From a bacterium (GTDB taxonomy: Bacteria; Armatimonadota; Zipacnadia; Zipacnadales; Zipacnadaceae), in contig JAUVXR010000012.1 in the NCBI GenBank assembly GCA_030603495.1, forward strand, positions 1-64,000: DNA of 64,000 bases. Reading direction: 5' to 3'. Of this stretch, positions 25,751 to 58,106 are shown in pieces. The notes below the pieces were generated by a model. The model was given only the letters and a program-made list of their open reading frames with translations. It ran no database searches and had not been told where the DNA came from. Positions within the stretch are counted from its first letter, which is position 1; every line of letters starts with the position of its first letter. Position numbers and translations under genes: made by a program.

Positions 25751-25803
25751 TCAGCATACCGGCTCAAACTCACAGTACCAGGTTGATACGGAGGAGAACC
25801 GTG

Positions 25804-27141
25804 ATGTCCGATACGAAGGACAAGCAATACGTATTAGAGCAGGTTAAGGCCAACAACGTCAAGTTCGTGAAGTTCTGGTTCACCGACATCCTGGGATACC
25901 TGAAGAGCTTCGCCATAACCGTCGAGCAGTTGGAGCAAGCCTTCGAAGATGGCCAGGGCTTTGACGGTTCGTCCATTCAGGGCTTTGCCCGTATTGACGA
26001 GAGCGATATGGTGGCTATGCCCGATCCGTCCACATTCACGATCCTGCCATGGCGGCCCAGCGAGGATGGCGCAGTGGCCCGGATGTTCTGCGACATTGTG
26101 CTGCCGAACGGCACGTCCTACGAATGTGACCCCCGCTATGTGCTCAAGCGCAACTTGGCGCGGGCGGCGAAACTGGGCTATACCTTCTACGTTGGTCCGG
26201 AGCTCGAATACTTCTACTTCAAGGGCAATGGTCTGGATACGCAAGTGCTCGACCACGCGGGCTACTTCGACATGACGCCACGGGATGAGGCGATGGACCT
26301 GCGCCGCGAGACCGTGCTTATGCTTCAAAAAATGGGCATCGCCGTCGAATACAGTCACCACGAGGTTGCCCCCTCCCAGCACGAGATTGACTTGCGCTAC
26401 ACCGATGGGCTGACGATGGCGGATGCCGCGATGAGCTATCGGTTGGTCGTCAAGGAGGTCGCCCTGCGCCACGACGTCTACGCGACCTTTATGCCCAAGC
26501 CCCTGCTTGCCGAGAACGGCAGCGGTATGCATGTCCACCAGTCCCTGTTCATGGGCGAGAAGAATGCGTTCTTTGACCCCGACGACGAGATACACCTGTC
26601 GGCCATTGCCCGCAAGTATATTGCCGGGCTGCTCAGGCATGCCCCGGAAATAACGCTGGTTACTAACCAGTGGATCAATTCATACAAGCGCCTGGTGCCC
26701 GGTTATGAGGCGCCGGTTTACCTGTCCTGGGCGTTGACTAATCGCTCAGACCTCATTCGCGTGCCTGCCTACAAGCTGGGACGGGAGGACGCGATGCGCA
26801 TAGAGTACCGCGCGCCCGACCCGGCTTGCAACCCCTACCTGGCCTTCGCAGTCATGCTGGCGGCGGGCCTGGAGGGGATCGAGAACGACTACGAATGCCC
26901 GGCGTCTGTCAACCGCAATGTCTATGAAATGTCCGAGGAGGAACGTGAGAGCCTGGGCGTCGGCACACTGCCCCCCGACCTGCACAGCGCGATTGGCCTG
27001 GCCGAAAGCAGCGAACTGCTCAAGCGGGCGCTGGGCGAGGAGATGCATAGCAAGCTCATCGAGAACAAGAAGATCGAGTGGGAGGAGTACCGCGTGCAGG
27101 TTACCAGTTGGGAGCTAGAGAAGTACCTGCCCGTGTTATGA
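25804..27141 (+). CDS. glnA: Glutamine synthetase type I
   Basis: 445 residues, the length of the GSI-alpha form. It makes glutamine from glutamate, ammonia and ATP as a cytosolic dodecamer. Motifs: FDGSSIQGFARIDESDM (Asp latch/ammonium side), GPELEYFYF (metal Glu), NGSGMHVHQS (ATP/metal), RIEYRAPDPACNPYLAFAVM. The beta-type adenylylation site (NLYDLP) is absent; the end reads WELEKYLPVL. Regulation is therefore not by adenylylation and is probably by feedback or a repressor, as in Gram-positives. The start at 25804 is fixed by GGAGGAG at 25791-25797. It precedes the M20 peptidase by 55 bases and may be co-transcribed with it. Confidence 0.95.
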   Translation: MSDTKDKQYVLEQVKANNVKFVKFWFTDILGYLKSFAITVEQLEQAFEDGQGFDGSSIQGFARIDESDMVAMPDPSTFTILPWRPSEDGAVARMFCDIVLPNGTSYECDPRYVLKRNLARAAKLGYTFYVGPELEYFYFKGNGLDTQVLDHAGYFDMTPRDEAMDLRRETVLMLQKMGIAVEYSHHEVAPSQHEIDLRYTDGLTMADAAMSYRLVVKEVALRHDVYATFMPKPLLAENGSGMHVHQSLFMGEKNAFFDPDDEIHLSAIARKYIAGLLRHAPEITLVTNQWINSYKRLVPGYEAPVYLSWALTNRSDLIRVPAYKLGREDAMRIEYRAPDPACNPYLAFAVMLAAGLEGIENDYECPASVNRNVYEMSEEERESLGVGTLPPDLHSAIGLAESSELLKRALGEEMHSKLIENKKIEWEEYRVQVTSWELEKYLPVL

Positions 27142-27196
27142 ACTGACTAACCCACGCAGTGCAGGGGAGCAGCACTCCCCGAAAGGCAGATCAGAG

Positions 27197-28312
27197 ATGG
27201 ACCGAGATGTCCTGGTGACCGAGTTCTGCGAACTTGTGCAGATTGACAGTCTGGCCCGGCGGGAAGCTGCCTTCGCTGAGGTTATCGTGGCGAAAATGGC
27301 TGAGATGGGACTCGAGGTGCAGCACGACGGTGCCGGTGCCCGGATTGACGGTGACTGCGATAACCTGATATTTCGGGTCCCGGCCCAGGCTGATGGTTTC
27401 CCGGTTGTAATGCTGAACTCGCACCTGGATACAGTCGGTGATTATACAGGCATCAGGCCGGTCGTCGAGGGCGATGAAGTTCACAGTGCCGGCGATACCA
27501 TTGTTGCGGCCGATGCCAAGGCCGGTGTTCTGATGATACTGGCTGCCTTGGGCAGGCTGGGCGCCGAGAACCTGCCCCACGGCGAACTGCTCGTGGTCTT
27601 CACAGTCGCGGAGGAGATTGGGCTAGTGGGGTCACGGCATCTGGACTACAATGTGCTCGAGCCGTGGCCCGACATGGCTTATGTGCTCGACGGGGGCGTT
27701 ACACCGGGGGAGATGACTACGCAGGCGCCGTATGCCGACGAGATTCACTTTGAAATCCGCGGCCAAGCGGCGCACGCCGGTGTGGAGCCGGAGAAGGGCA
27801 TCAATTCGATCCAGATTGCGGCGCAGGCCATAGCCCAGATGAAGCTGGGGCGGTTGGATGAGGAGTCCACTGCCAACATCGGTACGATCCAGGGCGGTGC
27901 GGCCGTCAATATTGTGCCTGAGATGACCCAATTCCGCGGTGAGGCCCGCAGCCACCAGGAGGAGAAGCTGGTCGTTCAGAGTCGGCATATGTGCGAGATG
28001 GTCGAAGAAGCAGCGGTCAAGCACGGTGCCACGGCGAAGATCGAGCAGGAGCGTACCTACAACGGCTTTGCCCTGAGCCCGGACGAGCCAGTGGTGCAGC
28101 GGGGAATAGCTGCCGCTGAGCAGGTCGGCTTGAAGCCCAGGTTGCACAAGGGCGGTGGCGGCAGCGACGCCAATCTGTTCAACGAGCACGGCATCCCTAG
28201 CGTTATTGTCAGCACCGGCGCCCACAAGATCCACACCACCGACGAGATCTTGAGTATACCCAGTATGCTCAGGTCTCTCGACTGGCTGATGGCGATACTG
28301 ACGGTAAAGTGA
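27197..28312 (+). CDS. M20-family peptidase, PepT-like
   Basis: 371 residues. Zn-binding set of clan MH: NSHLDTVGD (His, catalytic Asp), DTIVAADAKAGVLMIL (bridging Asp), VAEEIGLVGSRHLD (general-base Glu plus metal Glu), LDGGVTPGE (Asp), and the final His in GAHKIHTTDE. A dimerisation lid with GQAAHAGVEPEKGINSI lies in between. The order and the AEEIG motif match the PepT/PepT2 tripeptidase group: cytosolic aminotripeptidase, releasing N-terminal residues. Only a weak AAGG ribosome site precedes the ATG. Confidence 0.88.
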   Translation: MDRDVLVTEFCELVQIDSLARREAAFAEVIVAKMAEMGLEVQHDGAGARIDGDCDNLIFRVPAQADGFPVVMLNSHLDTVGDYTGIRPVVEGDEVHSAGDTIVAADAKAGVLMILAALGRLGAENLPHGELLVVFTVAEEIGLVGSRHLDYNVLEPWPDMAYVLDGGVTPGEMTTQAPYADEIHFEIRGQAAHAGVEPEKGINSIQIAAQAIAQMKLGRLDEESTANIGTIQGGAAVNIVPEMTQFRGEARSHQEEKLVVQSRHMCEMVEEAAVKHGATAKIEQERTYNGFALSPDEPVVQRGIAAAEQVGLKPRLHKGGGGSDANLFNEHGIPSVIVSTGAHKIHTTDEILSIPSMLRSLDWLMAILTVK

Positions 28313-28358
28313 CGATGGACAGGCAAGGGGCCGGTCATTCTGATGCGCGCTGTCGGGG

Positions 28359-28387
28359 TTGACACTCAAGCCAGAATCGAATAAGCT
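28359..28387 (+). promoter_or_regulatory. Promoter of the kinase-deaminase fusion gene
   Basis: TTGACA (28359-28364), 17 bases, TAAGCT (28382-28387). The -35 is perfect and the -10 matches at four of six positions. The transcript would begin ~50 bases before the ATG at 28437. The gene therefore has its own promoter, independent of the upstream peptidase. Confidence 0.65.
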
Positions 28388-28436
28388 TGCTGTAGGTGGC
28401 AGTCACGCTACTTACCTCCCCATTGGAGGCACGTAG

Positions 28437-29645
28437 ATGTCTGTTGGACGCCTCATAGTTGGCATCACGGGTCATTACGGCGCTGGTAGGACAACGGTTG
28501 CGAACATCCTCGAAACTGATTCCGGCTTCGAAAACATCTCTCTGTCATCTTTTCTGCGTAGTAGTGCTGACGAGCACCTGACTATTGAGGAATTGCAGCA
28601 GCGGGGCGATGACTTGAGACGCGCAGAGGGTGAAGACGCGCTGGCTAAGCGAGCCCTTGCAGAGATGCAAAAGCAAAACGGGGATTGTTACGTCATCGAT
28701 GGCATCAAGCACCCGAATGAAGCCAAGACGTTAGCAATTGACGGCAATTTCTTTTTATTGGCAGTCCAAGCCGACACTGAAGCCAGGTGGCAACGCAAGC
28801 AAGATGATTTGGGTGATGACCGGAATCAATTCAATAGAATCGACGCCATCGACAACAAGGAGACCGACAGCTGGGGTATGCCTGTCGAGCACGGTCAAAG
28901 AGTTGCGGACTGCTTGCTTTTGGCAGATGCTTTCATTTGGAACGACGCTCCGCTGCAGTCTTCAACCAAAGACACACAAAGAGGGACGTTGCCTGAGCTG
29001 CGAAGAAAAATTGCCCGTTTCCACGCGCTCATCACCAACCCGGGCCGCGAGGCGCCCAGCCGCTTTGAGGTCCTTATGGCTCAGGCCTACTTGGCCGCCC
29101 AACTGTCTTCTTGTTTACAAAGGAAGGTTGGTGCGATCATCACCAATAACTATTATCGTATCATAGCCGAAGGGTACAATGAGGTTCCAGATACTGAGGG
29201 GTCCTGCGACGAGGTATTCGGTGGTTGTTACCGAAATAGAATACGAGAGCAGGATCTGAGAAAACTAAGCCAGCTATTCAAGTGCGGCCAGTGTGGCGGT
29301 CCTTTGTCAGTCGATCTCGAATGCCAGACGTGCGGACCGTACAGCCAGTTATTGCCTAAACGGCAGCATCTGGATTACTGCCGCGCCCTGCATGCGGAAG
29401 AACGTGCCATTCTCCAATGTAGCAGGTATGGCGGCGTCGGCCTCGAAGGTAGTACTATGTTTTGTACAACCTTTCCGTGTGCGTTGTGTGCCAAGAAGAT
29501 CGTTGATTGTGCAATAGGAACCGTGATCTTTGTGGAGCCATACAAGGTCAAAGACGCGTTTGACTTCTTCAGGGATGCGAAGACTCAATTGATTTGCTTT
29601 GAGGGTTTTGCAGCGCGAGCATTCCAGAGAGTTTTCAGATCATGA
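28437..29645 (+). CDS. P-loop kinase-like / cytidine deaminase fusion (possible anti-phage dCMP/dCTP deaminase)
   Basis: 402 residues. Residues 1-170 are a nucleotide-kinase-like P-loop domain: IVGITGHYGAGRTTV with Walker A Lys replaced by Arg18, then a VIDGIKHPNEAKTL element and a lid. Residues ~205-400 are a zinc deoxycytidylate-deaminase domain: RKVGAIIT, catalytic LHAEE (His319, Glu321), PCALC (Cys348, Cys351). Cys283, Cys286, Cys296 and Cys299 form an inserted zinc ribbon. Known relatives with P-loop plus dC-deaminase domains include AvcD-type anti-phage enzymes that deplete dCTP/dCMP; a housekeeping dCMP deaminase would be ~150-180 residues. GGAGG sets the ATG. Base composition is visibly more A/T-rich than the neighbours, and codon use is less GC3-biased, suggesting transfer. 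Confidence 0.82.
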   Translation: MSVGRLIVGITGHYGAGRTTVANILETDSGFENISLSSFLRSSADEHLTIEELQQRGDDLRRAEGEDALAKRALAEMQKQNGDCYVIDGIKHPNEAKTLAIDGNFFLLAVQADTEARWQRKQDDLGDDRNQFNRIDAIDNKETDSWGMPVEHGQRVADCLLLADAFIWNDAPLQSSTKDTQRGTLPELRRKIARFHALITNPGREAPSRFEVLMAQAYLAAQLSSCLQRKVGAIITNNYYRIIAEGYNEVPDTEGSCDEVFGGCYRNRIREQDLRKLSQLFKCGQCGGPLSVDLECQTCGPYSQLLPKRQHLDYCRALHAEERAILQCSRYGGVGLEGSTMFCTTFPCALCAKKIVDCAIGTVIFVEPYKVKDAFDFFRDAKTQLICFEGFAARAFQRVFRS

Positions 29646-29666: not shown

Positions 29667-29846
29667 ATGACTAATCAGAGCAACGATAGCAGCCAATCTA
29701 AGCAGCCGAAGCTGATCTCTGAGACCCATACTGAAGAAGAGACTGTCCTTCCGCGGGAAAGTGCCCCAAGGAGTGTCGCCGAGGAGGCACTTTGCTCACG
29801 GTGGCTGGCCGAGCCAATCTGGAGATTGAGGGACAAAAACGAATAA
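29667..29846 (+). CDS. Small polar protein next to the kinase-deaminase gene
   Basis: 59 residues beginning MTNQSNDSSQSKQPKLISET, rich in Glu, Ser, Asn and Gln, ending SRWLAEPIWRLRDKNE with one amphipathic segment. GGGAGGGAG ~9-15 bases upstream gives it a good ribosome site, and it starts 21 bases after the deaminase stop, so it is probably in the same transcript. No recognised family. It could be a regulator or partner of the fusion enzyme, but that is inference from position only. Confidence 0.5.
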   Translation: MTNQSNDSSQSKQPKLISETHTEEETVLPRESAPRSVAEEALCSRWLAEPIWRLRDKNE

Positions 29847-29880: not shown

Positions 29881-29910
29881 TTGACAACCACAGGTCAGTC
29901 AGGATATAGT
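29881..29910 (+). promoter_or_regulatory. Promoter of the T-box-ilvD transcript
   Basis: TTGACA (29881-29886), 18-base spacer, TATAGT (29905-29910). The expected start is ~29917, about 20 bases before stem I of the T-box leader. Confidence 0.8.
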
Positions 29911-29937
29911 ATCGTTAAACTGAATAGGATTTGCTGT

Positions 29938-30190
29938 GATGGGGAGGAGTATGCGGGGAGCGGAGGCTACAGCGAGCCGGCGGGAAGGTGAGAGTCCCGG
30001 CGCCTTTTGACCGCAGAACGTCGCCCCTGAGCCGTACCGCCGAAGCTAAGTAAGCGGCAACCGGGCTGCGCCCGTTACAGCGTCAGAGAGTCCCGCCTTC
30101 GCCAAGGCTACGGCGGGGAACTTGGGTGGTACCGCGGGAGATGCTAGTTATCGGCCTCTCGTCCCAATGGGGACGAGAGGCTTTCTGTTA
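29938..30190 (+). promoter_or_regulatory. T-box riboswitch leader of ilvD
   Basis: Textbook T-box order: stem I base GGGGAGGAGTA (loop E AGTA side), the AG-bulge region and GGTGAGAG distal motif, the return strand GAACGTCGCCCC, and the T-box TGGGTGGTACCGCGGG at 30123-30138. The antitermination fold then competes with the terminator at 30154-30189. The codon after GAAC in the specifier loop reads GUC (30020-30022), so uncharged tRNA-Val is the likely ligand; that reading is inference from the alignment. Uncharged tRNA pairs at the specifier and T-box bulge and allows read-through into ilvD. Confidence 0.92.
30154..30189 (+). terminator. T-box regulated intrinsic terminator
   Basis: A 12-bp stem, GCCTCTCGTCCC / GGGACGAGAGGC (partner strand 30170-30181), a 4-base AATG loop and TTTCTGTT. 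Its 5' side is preceded by the T-box sequence that forms the alternative antiterminator. It lies ~30 bases before the ilvD start. Confidence 0.9.
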
Positions 30191-30219
30191 TTCAGTGGTG
30201 ACTGGAAAGGGGCGTCATT

Positions 30220-31872
30220 ATGCGCAGTGATCGAGTGACCAAAGGGCTGACTCGGGCGGCAGCGCGGGCACTATTGCACGCCTGTGGACTGACCCGGGAG
30301 CAACTGGACAAGCCGTTCATCGGCATCGCCAATAGCTTTTCGGACCTGGTGCCCGGCCATATTGGGATGCACCGGCTCCAGCGCGCGATCGAGCTGGGTG
30401 TTGCCGCGGGCGGCGGCGTGCCGTTCAATTTTGGCCTGCCGGCGATCTGTGATGGCATTGCCATGGGGCATCTGGGCATGTTCTACTCGTTGCCCTCGCG
30501 CGAGTTGATTGCCGATACCGTCGAGTCAATGGCCCAAGCGCATGCTTTGGACGGGCTGGTTCTGCTCACCGACTGCGACAAGATCACGCCCGGGATGCTG
30601 ATGGCCGCCGGCCGGCTGGATATTCCGGCTATCGTTGTTACTGCAGGGCCAATGATGTCCGGGCGATACGAGGGGCGCCGACTGTCGCTGGTGCGCGATA
30701 CTTTCGAGGCCATCGGTCGGGCCCAGGCCGGTGAGATCACCGAGGAACAGGTCGCGGAACTGGAGATGGAGGCCTGCCCGGGCCAGGGCGCGTGTCAGGG
30801 GCTATACACGGCCAATACGATGGCTTGTGTGACCGAGGCGATGGGCATGAGCCTGCCCGGCTCGGCCACGGCGCTGGCGGGTAGTGCCAGGCGGGAGCGC
30901 TTTGCGTATGAGGGTGGCGAGCGTATTGTGGAGTTGGTTGAGGAGGACATCACCACCCGCCAGATCATCACTGAAGCTTCTGTCCGCAATGCGATTCGCA
31001 TTGATATGACTCTGGGCGGCTCGACCAATACCTGCCTGCACATCCCGGCTATTGCCCACGAGGCCGGCGTAGATATCGAGCTGGAGGTCTTTGACGAGAT
31101 CAGCCAGGTGACCCCTCAGATCTGCTCCCTGCGGCCAGGCGGCGACTATATGATGGAAGATCTGGACTGGGCCGGCGGGATTCCGGCGGTGCTATCGGTG
31201 CTCAGGGACATGCTGGACGACAACACGACTGTCACTGGTAAGTCTGTTAGCGAGATTGCAGCGGACGGCCAGGTCAGCAACGACGATGTTATCCGCTCAC
31301 TGGATAATGTCTATGCACCGCAGGGCGGCATTGCGGTGCTGCGAGGGAACCTCTGTCCCGACGGTGCAGTCATCAAGCAGTCGGCGGTCTCGGCGAAGAT
31401 GCGCACGTTCCGGGGCCAGGCGCTCTGCTTCGAATCTGAGGAGGCGGCGATGGAGGCTATACTCGCTGACCGAATTCCCGATGGCTCGTGGGCGATAGTG
31501 CGCTATGAGGGGCCCCGGGGAGGCCCCGGGATGCGCGAGATGCTCAACCCGACTGCGGCCTTGACTGGCATGGGCAAGGAGGAAAGTGTGGGGTTGGTGA
31601 CTGACGGACGCTTCTCGGGTGGGACGCGTGGCCCTTGCATCGGGCACATCTCGCCGGAAGCCGCCGCGGGCGGCCCGCTGGCGCTGGTTCAGGACGGCGA
31701 CGAGATCGAGATGAACCTGGCCGAGCGGCGGCTGGAGCTGCTGGTGGATGATGACGAGCTGGCCCGGCGTCGCGAACAGTGGCAGCGACCCGAGCCGAAG
31801 ATCAAGACTGGCTGGCTGGCCCGCTACGCTCGGAACGTGACCAGCGCAGCAACCGGAGCGGTGATGGAGTAG
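30220..31872 (+). CDS. ilvD: Dihydroxy-acid dehydratase
   Basis: 550 residues, full length. It dehydrates 2,3-dihydroxy-isovalerate and -methylvalerate to the 2-oxo acids of valine and isoleucine synthesis. Fe-S ligands: [21 protein letters not shown] (cysteines) and the earlier [10 protein letters not shown]. The C-terminal swivelling domain has [12 protein letters not shown] and [20 protein letters not shown], family hallmarks carrying the active-site Ser. AAAGGGG precedes the ATG. Controlled by the T-box just upstream; ilvB follows after 34 bases, so both should respond to tRNA-Val. Confidence 0.97.
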
Positions 31873-56071: not shown

Positions 56072-56492
56072 TAAGCCGAGTTACTCGCCTGCAAAACCCC
56101 ATTTTGCCCATATTTCCTGCCCCTTTGTGGGACGATAATCCTTGCTATAGTGCCCACTTTGCCCCACACTACCAGCCCCGTGCTCCACGTACAGTCCTTC
56201 CTTCTCTATCCCCCCACCTTCCCCTCCTACCCTACACCCCTCGGCAAGAGCACACACCCTTCACGTCAGCAGACGGAAAGAATCTGTGAAGCTACTCTCC
56301 GTCAGGGCTTGAATGACTATGCCCCGCACGTGACGAACCCCTATTCGGGACATGGGGCTACCTACCTGTGTGGTCTGGAGGTGTTTCCGGGAATCTGTCA
56401 CGCCAGACGGCAACCATCCCAGTCCATCCGGAACGCATGTGAGCAATCGTTTGGCAGGTACTTCTCAAAGAATGGGATTTGGAGCCACAAGC
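56072..56492. other. Leader region of the DUF262-HEPN pair
   Basis: About 420 bases without a credible gene. It is pyrimidine-rich from ~56160 to 56250 and more A/T-rich than upstream. A possible weak promoter, TTGTGG-N15-TATAGT, ends at ~56152. At ~56273-56304 GACGGA and TCCGTC could pair around a long loop. Composition changes here, consistent with the edge of an inserted segment, but I could not find terminal repeats or an att site. Confidence 0.35.
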
Positions 56493-57629
56493 ATGAGCAA
56501 CGATACTGACATAGCGTCACTCGACGGCAGAGCCGAATACGAACGAAAAACGGTTCGCCCCGAAGACATCGAGTTCGAGCGTATCGGGTCGGAAGAGGAG
56601 GATTACGAGAGCGCGCCTCCCACGTACGAGATCAACACCTATCCTGCGGATTTCACTCTTGAGGTGCTCTATACCAAGTGGAATGCTGGTGACATCGAGA
56701 TTCCGCGCTTCCAGCGTCAATTCGTATGGAGGCAGGTCCAAGCGAGCAAGCTCATCGAATCCTTCCTCATCGGACTTCCGGTTCCCGCTGTGTTCCTATA
56801 CACTAAAAGGACAACACAGAAGTTCCTCGTCATCGACGGACAGCAACGTTTTCGCAGCGTGTTCTACTTCTTTGACGGCTTCTTCGGTGAAGAGCAGAAG
56901 GGGAAGCGACAGGTCTTCCAGCTCAAGGGGCTTAGCAAAGATAGCAAGTACTACGATAAGACCTTCGAGGACCTCGATGAGCCAGATCGCCGTAAGCTTC
57001 ACAACTGTGTACTGCGCTCGTTTATCGTCCAGCAACTCGATCCCGCAGCAGACGATACCAGCATGTACCACATCTTCGAAAGGCTGAACACAGGCGGCAC
57101 GCTGCTCGCCAACCAAGAAATTCGTAACTGTGTGTACCGCGGCTCATTCACCGAGCTATTGCAGGTTCTTAACACGCTTCCTGAGTGGCGACGCATAGTT
57201 GGACGGGATGCCCCTGACACCCGACAGAAAGATGTGGAGTTAATCTTGCGGTTCTTTGCCCTTCTTGACACCGCCAGCTATAAGAAGCCGATGAAGGACT
57301 TTTTGAGCAAGTTCATGAAGGCCAATCGTGAGCCATCCAATAGTGTGCTCGGACAGTTTGAGGAGCTGTTCAGGGGTACATGTAAGGGTGTGGTGGACAA
57401 TATAGGAGATCGTCCCTTCCACATACGTGCGGGGCTCAACAGCGCCGTGTTTGACTGCGTGATGGTGAGCTTTGCGAACCATCGCGGCGTGATCGCAGCG
57501 GACATCAGAGAGCGGTATGACCGGCTAGTGAGCGATGATGAGTTTCTCAATAACGCGAGAAGCGGCACGACGGACGAACTGGTTCTCAGAAAGCGTTTTC
57601 GCGCCGCGAACCAGGCGTTGTTTGGGTAA
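56493..57629 (+). CDS. DUF262 (GmrSD/ParB-like NTPase) protein
   Basis: 378 residues. DUF262 motifs: IPRFQRQFVWRQVQASKLIE (~71-90), FLIGLPVPAVFLY, the catalytic LVIDGQQRFRSV (Asp115-Arg119, DGQQR), and FERLNTGGTLLANQEIRNCV. DUF262 domains use NTPs and occur in anti-phage systems (GmrSD/BrxU, SspE). Here there is no C-terminal DUF1524 HNH nuclease; the last ~100 residues are helical. It starts with GGAG 8 bases before ATG 56493. The HEPN gene follows after 9 bases, so the two form an operon. Base composition is lower in GC than the neighbouring genes, suggesting horizontal acquisition. Confidence 0.85.
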   Translation: MSNDTDIASLDGRAEYERKTVRPEDIEFERIGSEEEDYESAPPTYEINTYPADFTLEVLYTKWNAGDIEIPRFQRQFVWRQVQASKLIESFLIGLPVPAVFLYTKRTTQKFLVIDGQQRFRSVFYFFDGFFGEEQKGKRQVFQLKGLSKDSKYYDKTFEDLDEPDRRKLHNCVLRSFIVQQLDPAADDTSMYHIFERLNTGGTLLANQEIRNCVYRGSFTELLQVLNTLPEWRRIVGRDAPDTRQKDVELILRFFALLDTASYKKPMKDFLSKFMKANREPSNSVLGQFEELFRGTCKGVVDNIGDRPFHIRAGLNSAVFDCVMVSFANHRGVIAADIRERYDRLVSDDEFLNNARSGTTDELVLRKRFRAANQALFG

Positions 57630-57638
57630 TCAAGGCCC

Positions 57639-58106
57639 ATGAAAATCGCACGAATCGATGAGGGCATAAAGACCTGCGAGGAGCACCTCCGAACTTCTGG
57701 TGCGAGCGGCACCGAGATCGAAGCTTTCCTGACGCGTTATCTAACGATAGTTATGTGCGCCAGCTTTGAGGAGCACATTGAGGAACTCGTAAACAGCCGT
57801 GCGGCGGAATCGCAAGACGTGGCGTTGGCGTCCTTTGTGCGTTCTTCACTGCACCAGGTATTTCGAAGTGTGAAGACCGGCGAGATAGCAGGTCTGCTAG
57901 GGCGCTTCGGTGAAGATCACAAGACCCGGTTTCAGGACGAGATGAGCAACAACGAGCGCGTGGCCACTTTCTATAACAACATTGTGGAGAACCGCCACCA
58001 AACGACACATGGCGGCGGATTCAATCTTACTTTCCGGGAGTTGGTTGATTTCTACTCCGAGGCCCAGCTGGTTCTTGATGCGGTCGCCAGAGCACTTCAG
58101 GGATAG
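57639..58106 (+). CDS. HEPN-domain protein (RiboL-PSP/MAE_28990-like), putative RNase
   Basis: 155 residues, all-helical. The HEPN RNase motif R-x4-H is present as ENRHQTTHGGG (Arg119, His124), preceded by NNIVE and followed by FRELVDFYSEAQ, the layout of RLPH/MAE_28990-type HEPN proteins. The N-terminal half has LTRYLTIVMCASFEEHIEEL, typical of that subfamily. Such HEPN proteins cut RNA and act as toxins or effectors. The 9-base gap to the DUF262 gene suggests the two act together, DUF262 probably sensing or controlling the RNase. A weak AAGG precedes the ATG. Confidence 0.8.
   Translation: MKIARIDEGIKTCEEHLRTSGASGTEIEAFLTRYLTIVMCASFEEHIEELVNSRAAESQDVALASFVRSSLHQVFRSVKTGEIAGLLGRFGEDHKTRFQDEMSNNERVATFYNNIVENRHQTTHGGGFNLTFRELVDFYSEAQLVLDAVARALQG

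Follow-up and report, generated by a model that had tools for sequence, protein, structure and literature searches.

Background

AvcID systems, that of ETEC included, act on dCTP and dCMP as deaminases and give protection against some phages, under the control of the AvcI RNA (PMC10511110, PMC9455884). This RNA keeps the enzyme silent (PMC10511110) and has its position upstream of AvcD (PMC9455884). The ETEC system, a homologue of the protein described here, lowers the deoxycytidine pool and gives phage protection (PMC10511110). In the literature examined, silencing and infection sensing of AvcD-type deaminases are described only for this RNA-controlled version.

Here we analyze a P-loop/deaminase fusion gene that encodes 402 amino acids at positions 28437 to 29645 of a 64,000-nucleotide stretch of bacterial DNA (the window). 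All genes, domains and motifs that we place in the window by coordinates lie on its forward strand. The branch to which the protein belongs is apparently not described in the literature that we searched, which left out two founding papers (Nat Microbiol 2022). Taking the analysis as a whole, we consider it reasonably likely that the gene encodes a stand-alone enzyme of the AvcD/anti-phage dCTP deaminase superfamily, which represents a separate ribbon lineage and would act in phage defence by depleting dCTP/dCMP.

Results and discussion

Domains and catalytic residues

The initial annotation described a kinase-like P-loop domain followed by a deaminase, and the open reading frame is indeed a real fusion of an AdkA/UPF0200-like P-loop domain and a catalytically complete dCMP/dCTP-type deaminase. 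The N-terminal domain (28449-28970, approximately residues 5-178) matches Pfam AAA_18 at residues 8-130 (3.5e-6) and the 3lw7/3h0k profile at residues 6-178 (1.7e-18), and Foldseek matches it to the AMP-bound AdkA-like protein 3lw7. It carries a D-G-I-K-H-P motif (28698-28715) whose form is conserved throughout the family. The C-terminal domain (29049-29642, approximately residues 205-402) matches PF00383 (dCMP/cytidine deaminase) at residues 211-366 (3.4e-18); Foldseek matches are the dCMP deaminases of Streptococcus mutans, human, cyanophage and T4 and the dCMP/dCTP deaminase of PBCV-1. The catalytic set consists of N248 in GYNEVP, H319-A-E321 (29391-29399) and the zinc-binding P347-C348-A-L-C351 (29475-29489), the latter two being invariant in the alignments. 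Between N248 and H319-A-E321 lie C257 and C264 (29205-29228) as well as the cysteines of the ribbon.

A structure was predicted with AlphaFold on the basis of 24 sequences, namely those of the window protein and its relatives. The pLDDT is 81.5 and the pTM 0.79, with both domain cores mostly above 90 and values below 50 at residues 251-264, 282-298 and 300-316. The two cores are thus modelled confidently, whereas the ribbon loop falls below 50 and its zinc-ribbon fold is not confirmed; we therefore use the word ribbon for a sequence motif and not for a modelled fold.

Arg-type Walker A and Cys4 ribbon

Two peculiarities had been pointed out at the start, an Arg in Walker A and a Cys4 ribbon before HAE, and the residues of both were read correctly. 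Walker A (28470-28493) is G12-H-Y-G-A-G-R18-T19, and the ribbon is C283-x2-C286-x9-C296-x2-C299 (29283-29333). In the window's phylum we searched 291 genomes for relatives, and two further phyla were sampled as well. Within the phylum there are three full relatives (L024, L025 and L026; 52, 45 and 44% identical), a C-terminal piece (L027, 53% identical) and an N-terminal piece (L033). All clade members having the N-terminus read GxxGAGR[ST], and the Arg is kept in 6/6 P-loops found, counting a pseudogene remnant in the sister species G005. Wherever the C-terminus is preserved, clade members have all four ribbon cysteines, the first knuckle being C-x-C in L027. Since Arg and cysteines recur in relatives that are only 44-53% identical, they cannot be ascribed to chance. 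Outside the clade, the three best matches in a 399-genome sample of a third phylum have no such ribbon, and a scan of genome contigs with the single window protein returned only two distant canonical relatives.

The remnant in G005 (L009, reverse complement of 1501-1614; G005:C35:58622-58735) comprises 38 amino acids with an Arg-type P-loop, GHYGAGRSTVARYL. It reads GHYGAGRST, is decayed, and lies in a 79-amino-acid open frame at a site unrelated to the window locus, with no deaminase left nearby.

The description of Walker A as a change from Lys to Arg needs to be narrowed. Arg18 is present, but the AvcD/dCTPase relatives lack the lysine too: in 40-odd canonical proteins (from plasmids, viral contigs and genomes) the position holds V, I, M, S, T, L or others, and no ribbon was seen in these sequences. 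Among the proteins compared, absence of the Walker lysine is a general family trait, and it is the Arg itself, together with the ribbon, that is special. The lysine of an active P-loop nucleotide kinase (GxxGxGK[ST]) is replaced by Arg in the window protein and clade-wide; at the Walker position lysine is found only in two short fusions, L031 (1513-2508) and L032 (approximately 1534-2529). These combine an intact AAGKG P-loop with a ComEB-like dCMP deaminase without ribbon, and L031 has Gly instead of Ala in HAE (H-G-E).

The survey also yielded a further divergent type, namely two proteins of 566-609 amino acids (L166 and L167, from G751 and G860) with GRTGSGC[ST]T as Walker A and a P-loop domain enlarged by a long insert. 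On a Rhizobium gallicum plasmid (L074, 1917-5348) a canonical P-loop/deaminase protein is encoded in two overlapping open reading frames, followed by a TIR-domain gene.

An accessory gene at an empty site

Counting one genome per species, the full gene occurs in one of seven genomes of the genus and one of 15 of the family, in both cases only in that of the window; far from belonging to the core genome, it is carried by none of the six remaining species of the genus. In the sister species G001 the segment 28365-29928 is missing. The window's 25765-28364 and 29929-31331 align there (L169) at 80-84%, approximately 42 bp stand in place of 1,564 bp, and the order glutamine synthetase, peptidase, T-box, ilvD is uninterrupted. 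As both flanks are syntenic with G001, a contaminating contig was rejected. The lower GC noted initially is borne out: the fusion gene has a GC of 0.514 and a GC3 of 0.56, against a GC3 of 0.72-0.79 for the flanking genes. From composition and rarity we infer that the direction was insertion in the window and not loss in G001, and judging from the sequence the gene is most likely a horizontally acquired accessory. Clear terminal repeats of the insertion were not found, the only candidate being a 16-nt direct repeat of 88% (28372 and 29834) that may be at chance level. Downstream in the inserted segment lies a 59-amino-acid open reading frame (29667-29846) with a plausible ribosome site; no homologue of it was found near any relative.

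Relative to G001, the insertion sits at the promoter of the ilvD T-box. The homology with G001 has its left edge at the TTGACA that starts the ilvD promoter there; in the window this hexamer (28359-28364) might serve as -35 of a deaminase promoter. The initial claim that the gene has its own promoter is softened here to a putative one: the TTGACA is perfect, but the best -10 (TAAGCT, 28382-28387) matches at three of six positions, and a promoter scan upstream of the fusion gene reported none. A GGAGG Shine-Dalgarno sequence is located 6 nt before the ATG; a leader hairpin hiding it (28414-28437, CCTCC/GGAGG) was rejected, its folding z-score of -1.64 not being significant. The window has a second TTGACA-18-TATAGT (29881-29910) ahead of the T-box leader (RF00230 at 29927-30169, 100.8 bits); the stretch 29881-30182 holds this leader with its own promoter and a terminator before ilvD.

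The neighbours of the fusion gene are metabolic genes, including amino-acid genes, and do not form a defence island; the same applies to its relatives. A conserved partner gene or antitoxin was rejected as well, as the relatives' neighbours are unrelated genes with no partner in common and nothing shared with the window. At some distance (56352-58106) the window does encode a GmrSD_N/DUF262 protein (Pfam 1.6e-27; PADLOC NsnA 1.2e-67 and PD-T4-2_A 1.5e-48), followed after 9 bp by a RiboL-PSP-HEPN gene (9.2e-13). By sequence these two look like a PD-T4-2-type two-gene defence pair, and the GC is lower in the patch that holds them, at 56-59 kb.

A solitary gene among metabolic genes, with a catalytic fold resembling plain dCMP deaminases, might also be taken for accessory pyrimidine salvage: a second dCMP/dCTP deaminase supplying dUMP for thymidylate, regulated by nucleotides through its P-loop and without a role in defence. 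The lysine-type fusions L031 and L032, which resemble ordinary dCMP deaminases and keep their P-loop intact, lend this some credit. We nonetheless hold it to be unlikely, because the genome encodes a separate housekeeping dCMP deaminase on contig C18, so that the metabolic need is already met, because all other genus genomes lack the gene, and because the phylogeny points elsewhere. In the deaminase-domain tree (70 rows) the housekeeping enzymes, the phage rows and the lysine-type fusions form one group (99/99), and the topology test rejects a tree in which the Arg-ribbon clade is forced to join the housekeeping enzymes (p-AU 1.4e-5). Together with the family scores given below, this rules out an ordinary dCMP deaminase.

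Relation to the canonical anti-phage deaminases

The likeness to anti-phage dCTP/dCMP deaminases that had been proposed extends over the full length of the protein. Its best NCBIfam match is NF041025, anti-phage dCTP deaminase (1.6e-70, residues 6-401). The PADLOC dCTPase model (PDLC02373) gives 2.5e-95 and 318.7 bits, against 1.4e-29 and 101.5 bits for the genome's own dCMP deaminase, and TIGR02571 gives 63.7 bits at a cut-off of 219. When the profile of the ribbon clade is compared with that of 11 canonical members (hhalign), the two align end to end, with a probability of 100 and an E-value of 1.7e-54 over columns 2-406; in this alignment, C257 and C264 align with a C..C pair that is invariant in these 11.

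Identity with canonical AvcD does not follow from this. The NF041025 score of 238.1 bits misses the curated equivalog cut-off of 400 bits, which the ETEC H10407 protein passes with 470.3 bits; five ribbon relatives score 185-233 bits, and every ribbon member is below the cut-off. The canonical set forms one side of a branch (95/89 for the deaminase domain, 100/99 for full length) with the window protein outside, and the Arg-ribbon clade of the window's phylum is itself well supported (97/91 and 99/99, respectively). Given the failed cut-off and tree test, we do not file the protein as a member of NF041025. Under the current curated cut-off, some of the diversity of these deaminases thus goes without a name.

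Five plasmid relatives have an open reading frame of 171-186 bp directly upstream, which corresponds to the position of AvcI (PMC9455884). Upstream of the window gene the 124-nt spacer shows neither a small open reading frame nor an Rfam match, although an RNA that sequence does not reveal may still lie there. Control would then come from another element or from an RNA that has escaped notice. The latter belongs to a reading in which the protein is a true but diverged AvcD, an RNA-controlled toxin with an AvcI-like RNA hidden upstream and with the ribbon as an incidental loop. Domain order and catalytic residues are indeed alike, the loop preceding HAE differs in length across the family, and the data do not reject a tree in which the Arg-ribbon clade and the canonical members are joined (p-AU 0.137). 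Against this stand the separate branch of the canonical set, the low scores of all ribbon members next to that of ETEC, the persistence of four ribbon cysteines at 44-53% identity and the short spacer, which together make a diverged AvcD improbable. Least of all do we expect cargo of a phage or mobile element that provides nucleotides for the element itself or modifies its DNA: low GC3, the insertion and the carriage of dCMP deaminases by phages would suit it, but there are no phage or transposon genes in or beside the 1,564-bp insert, and the viral contigs contained plain phage dCMP deaminases only and no ribbon relative.

Proposed mode of action

Returning to the ribbon-lineage enzyme that we favour, its mode of action can be sketched as follows. 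The protein probably works like an AvcD-type deaminase. In view of the intact active site and the related family, the deaminase domain would most likely turn dCTP and/or dCMP into uracil forms. The N-terminal domain is unlikely to be a kinase, since the catalytic lysine is missing; more likely it senses nucleotides, binding them as a regulatory module. In healthy cells the enzyme would stay silent until infection triggers it, and once active it would starve phage DNA synthesis of dCTP. This proposed role in phage defence is favoured by the end-to-end alignment with canonical members, the PADLOC score, the complete catalytic set, the findings on ETEC AvcID, the accessory occurrence, the separate housekeeping dCMP deaminase and the placement of the clade outside the housekeeping enzymes. 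The ribbon may be a structural or sensing element adjoining the active site.

Against this proposal stand the metabolic neighbourhood, which is no defence island, and the missed NF041025 cut-off. As no AvcI-like regulator is visible, it also does not account for the silence in healthy cells. With the open reading frame at the AvcI position missing, control would most readily be sought in the ribbon and the P-loop. A rather speculative extension would be a single-gene defence in which these two replace the RNA antitoxin switch, with a nucleotide as the signal for the P-loop and a phage protein or a nucleic acid as that for the ribbon; we consider this doubtful.

Comparison with known systems

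The AdkA-like UPF0200 proteins (3lw7, 3h0k) share the P-loop sequence profile and the fold of the N-terminal domain, but they stand alone without a deaminase, whereas the window protein is a fusion. Housekeeping and phage dCMP deaminases (ComEB, T4 Cd) have in common with it the deaminase fold, the zinc site and the C..C..(L/Y)CR before HAE, yet they form a separate clade and have neither the P-loop domain nor the ribbon.

Two proteins of another phylum (L050 from G440 and L051 from G640) combine a P-loop, a deaminase and Cys-rich ribbon(s) placed as in the window protein. Their Walker A however has Cys (GSFGSGCGT in L050) or Ser (GPIGGGST in L051) instead of Arg, and L051 carries two ribbons against one here. 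The ribbon is thus more widespread than the Arg, which marks one clade of a lysine-less family. That these two form one clade with the Arg group is neither established nor rejected (p-AU 0.42 for the deaminase domain, with all seven ribbon proteins, and 0.12 for full length), with the placement of these outliers being unsure owing to nearby long branches in the full-length tree.

AvcD itself (NF041025; PADLOC dCTPase; for example ETEC H10407 p58, WP_000951932) agrees with the window protein in domain order, catalytic residues, the C..C pair preceding the insert position and the missing Walker lysine. The Arg in Walker A and the Cys4 ribbon are found on the window side only, where HAEE replaces the HAEM of canonical AvcD. 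The window protein, with approximately 400 amino acids, lacks the C-terminal extension of the canonical proteins (499-566 amino acids), and the small upstream open reading frame is seen at AvcD genes but not at the window gene. A lineage that has the domain plan of AvcD, no sign of an antitoxin slot, and a fixed ribbon and Arg P-loop lends itself to comparisons on the role of the P-loop domain.
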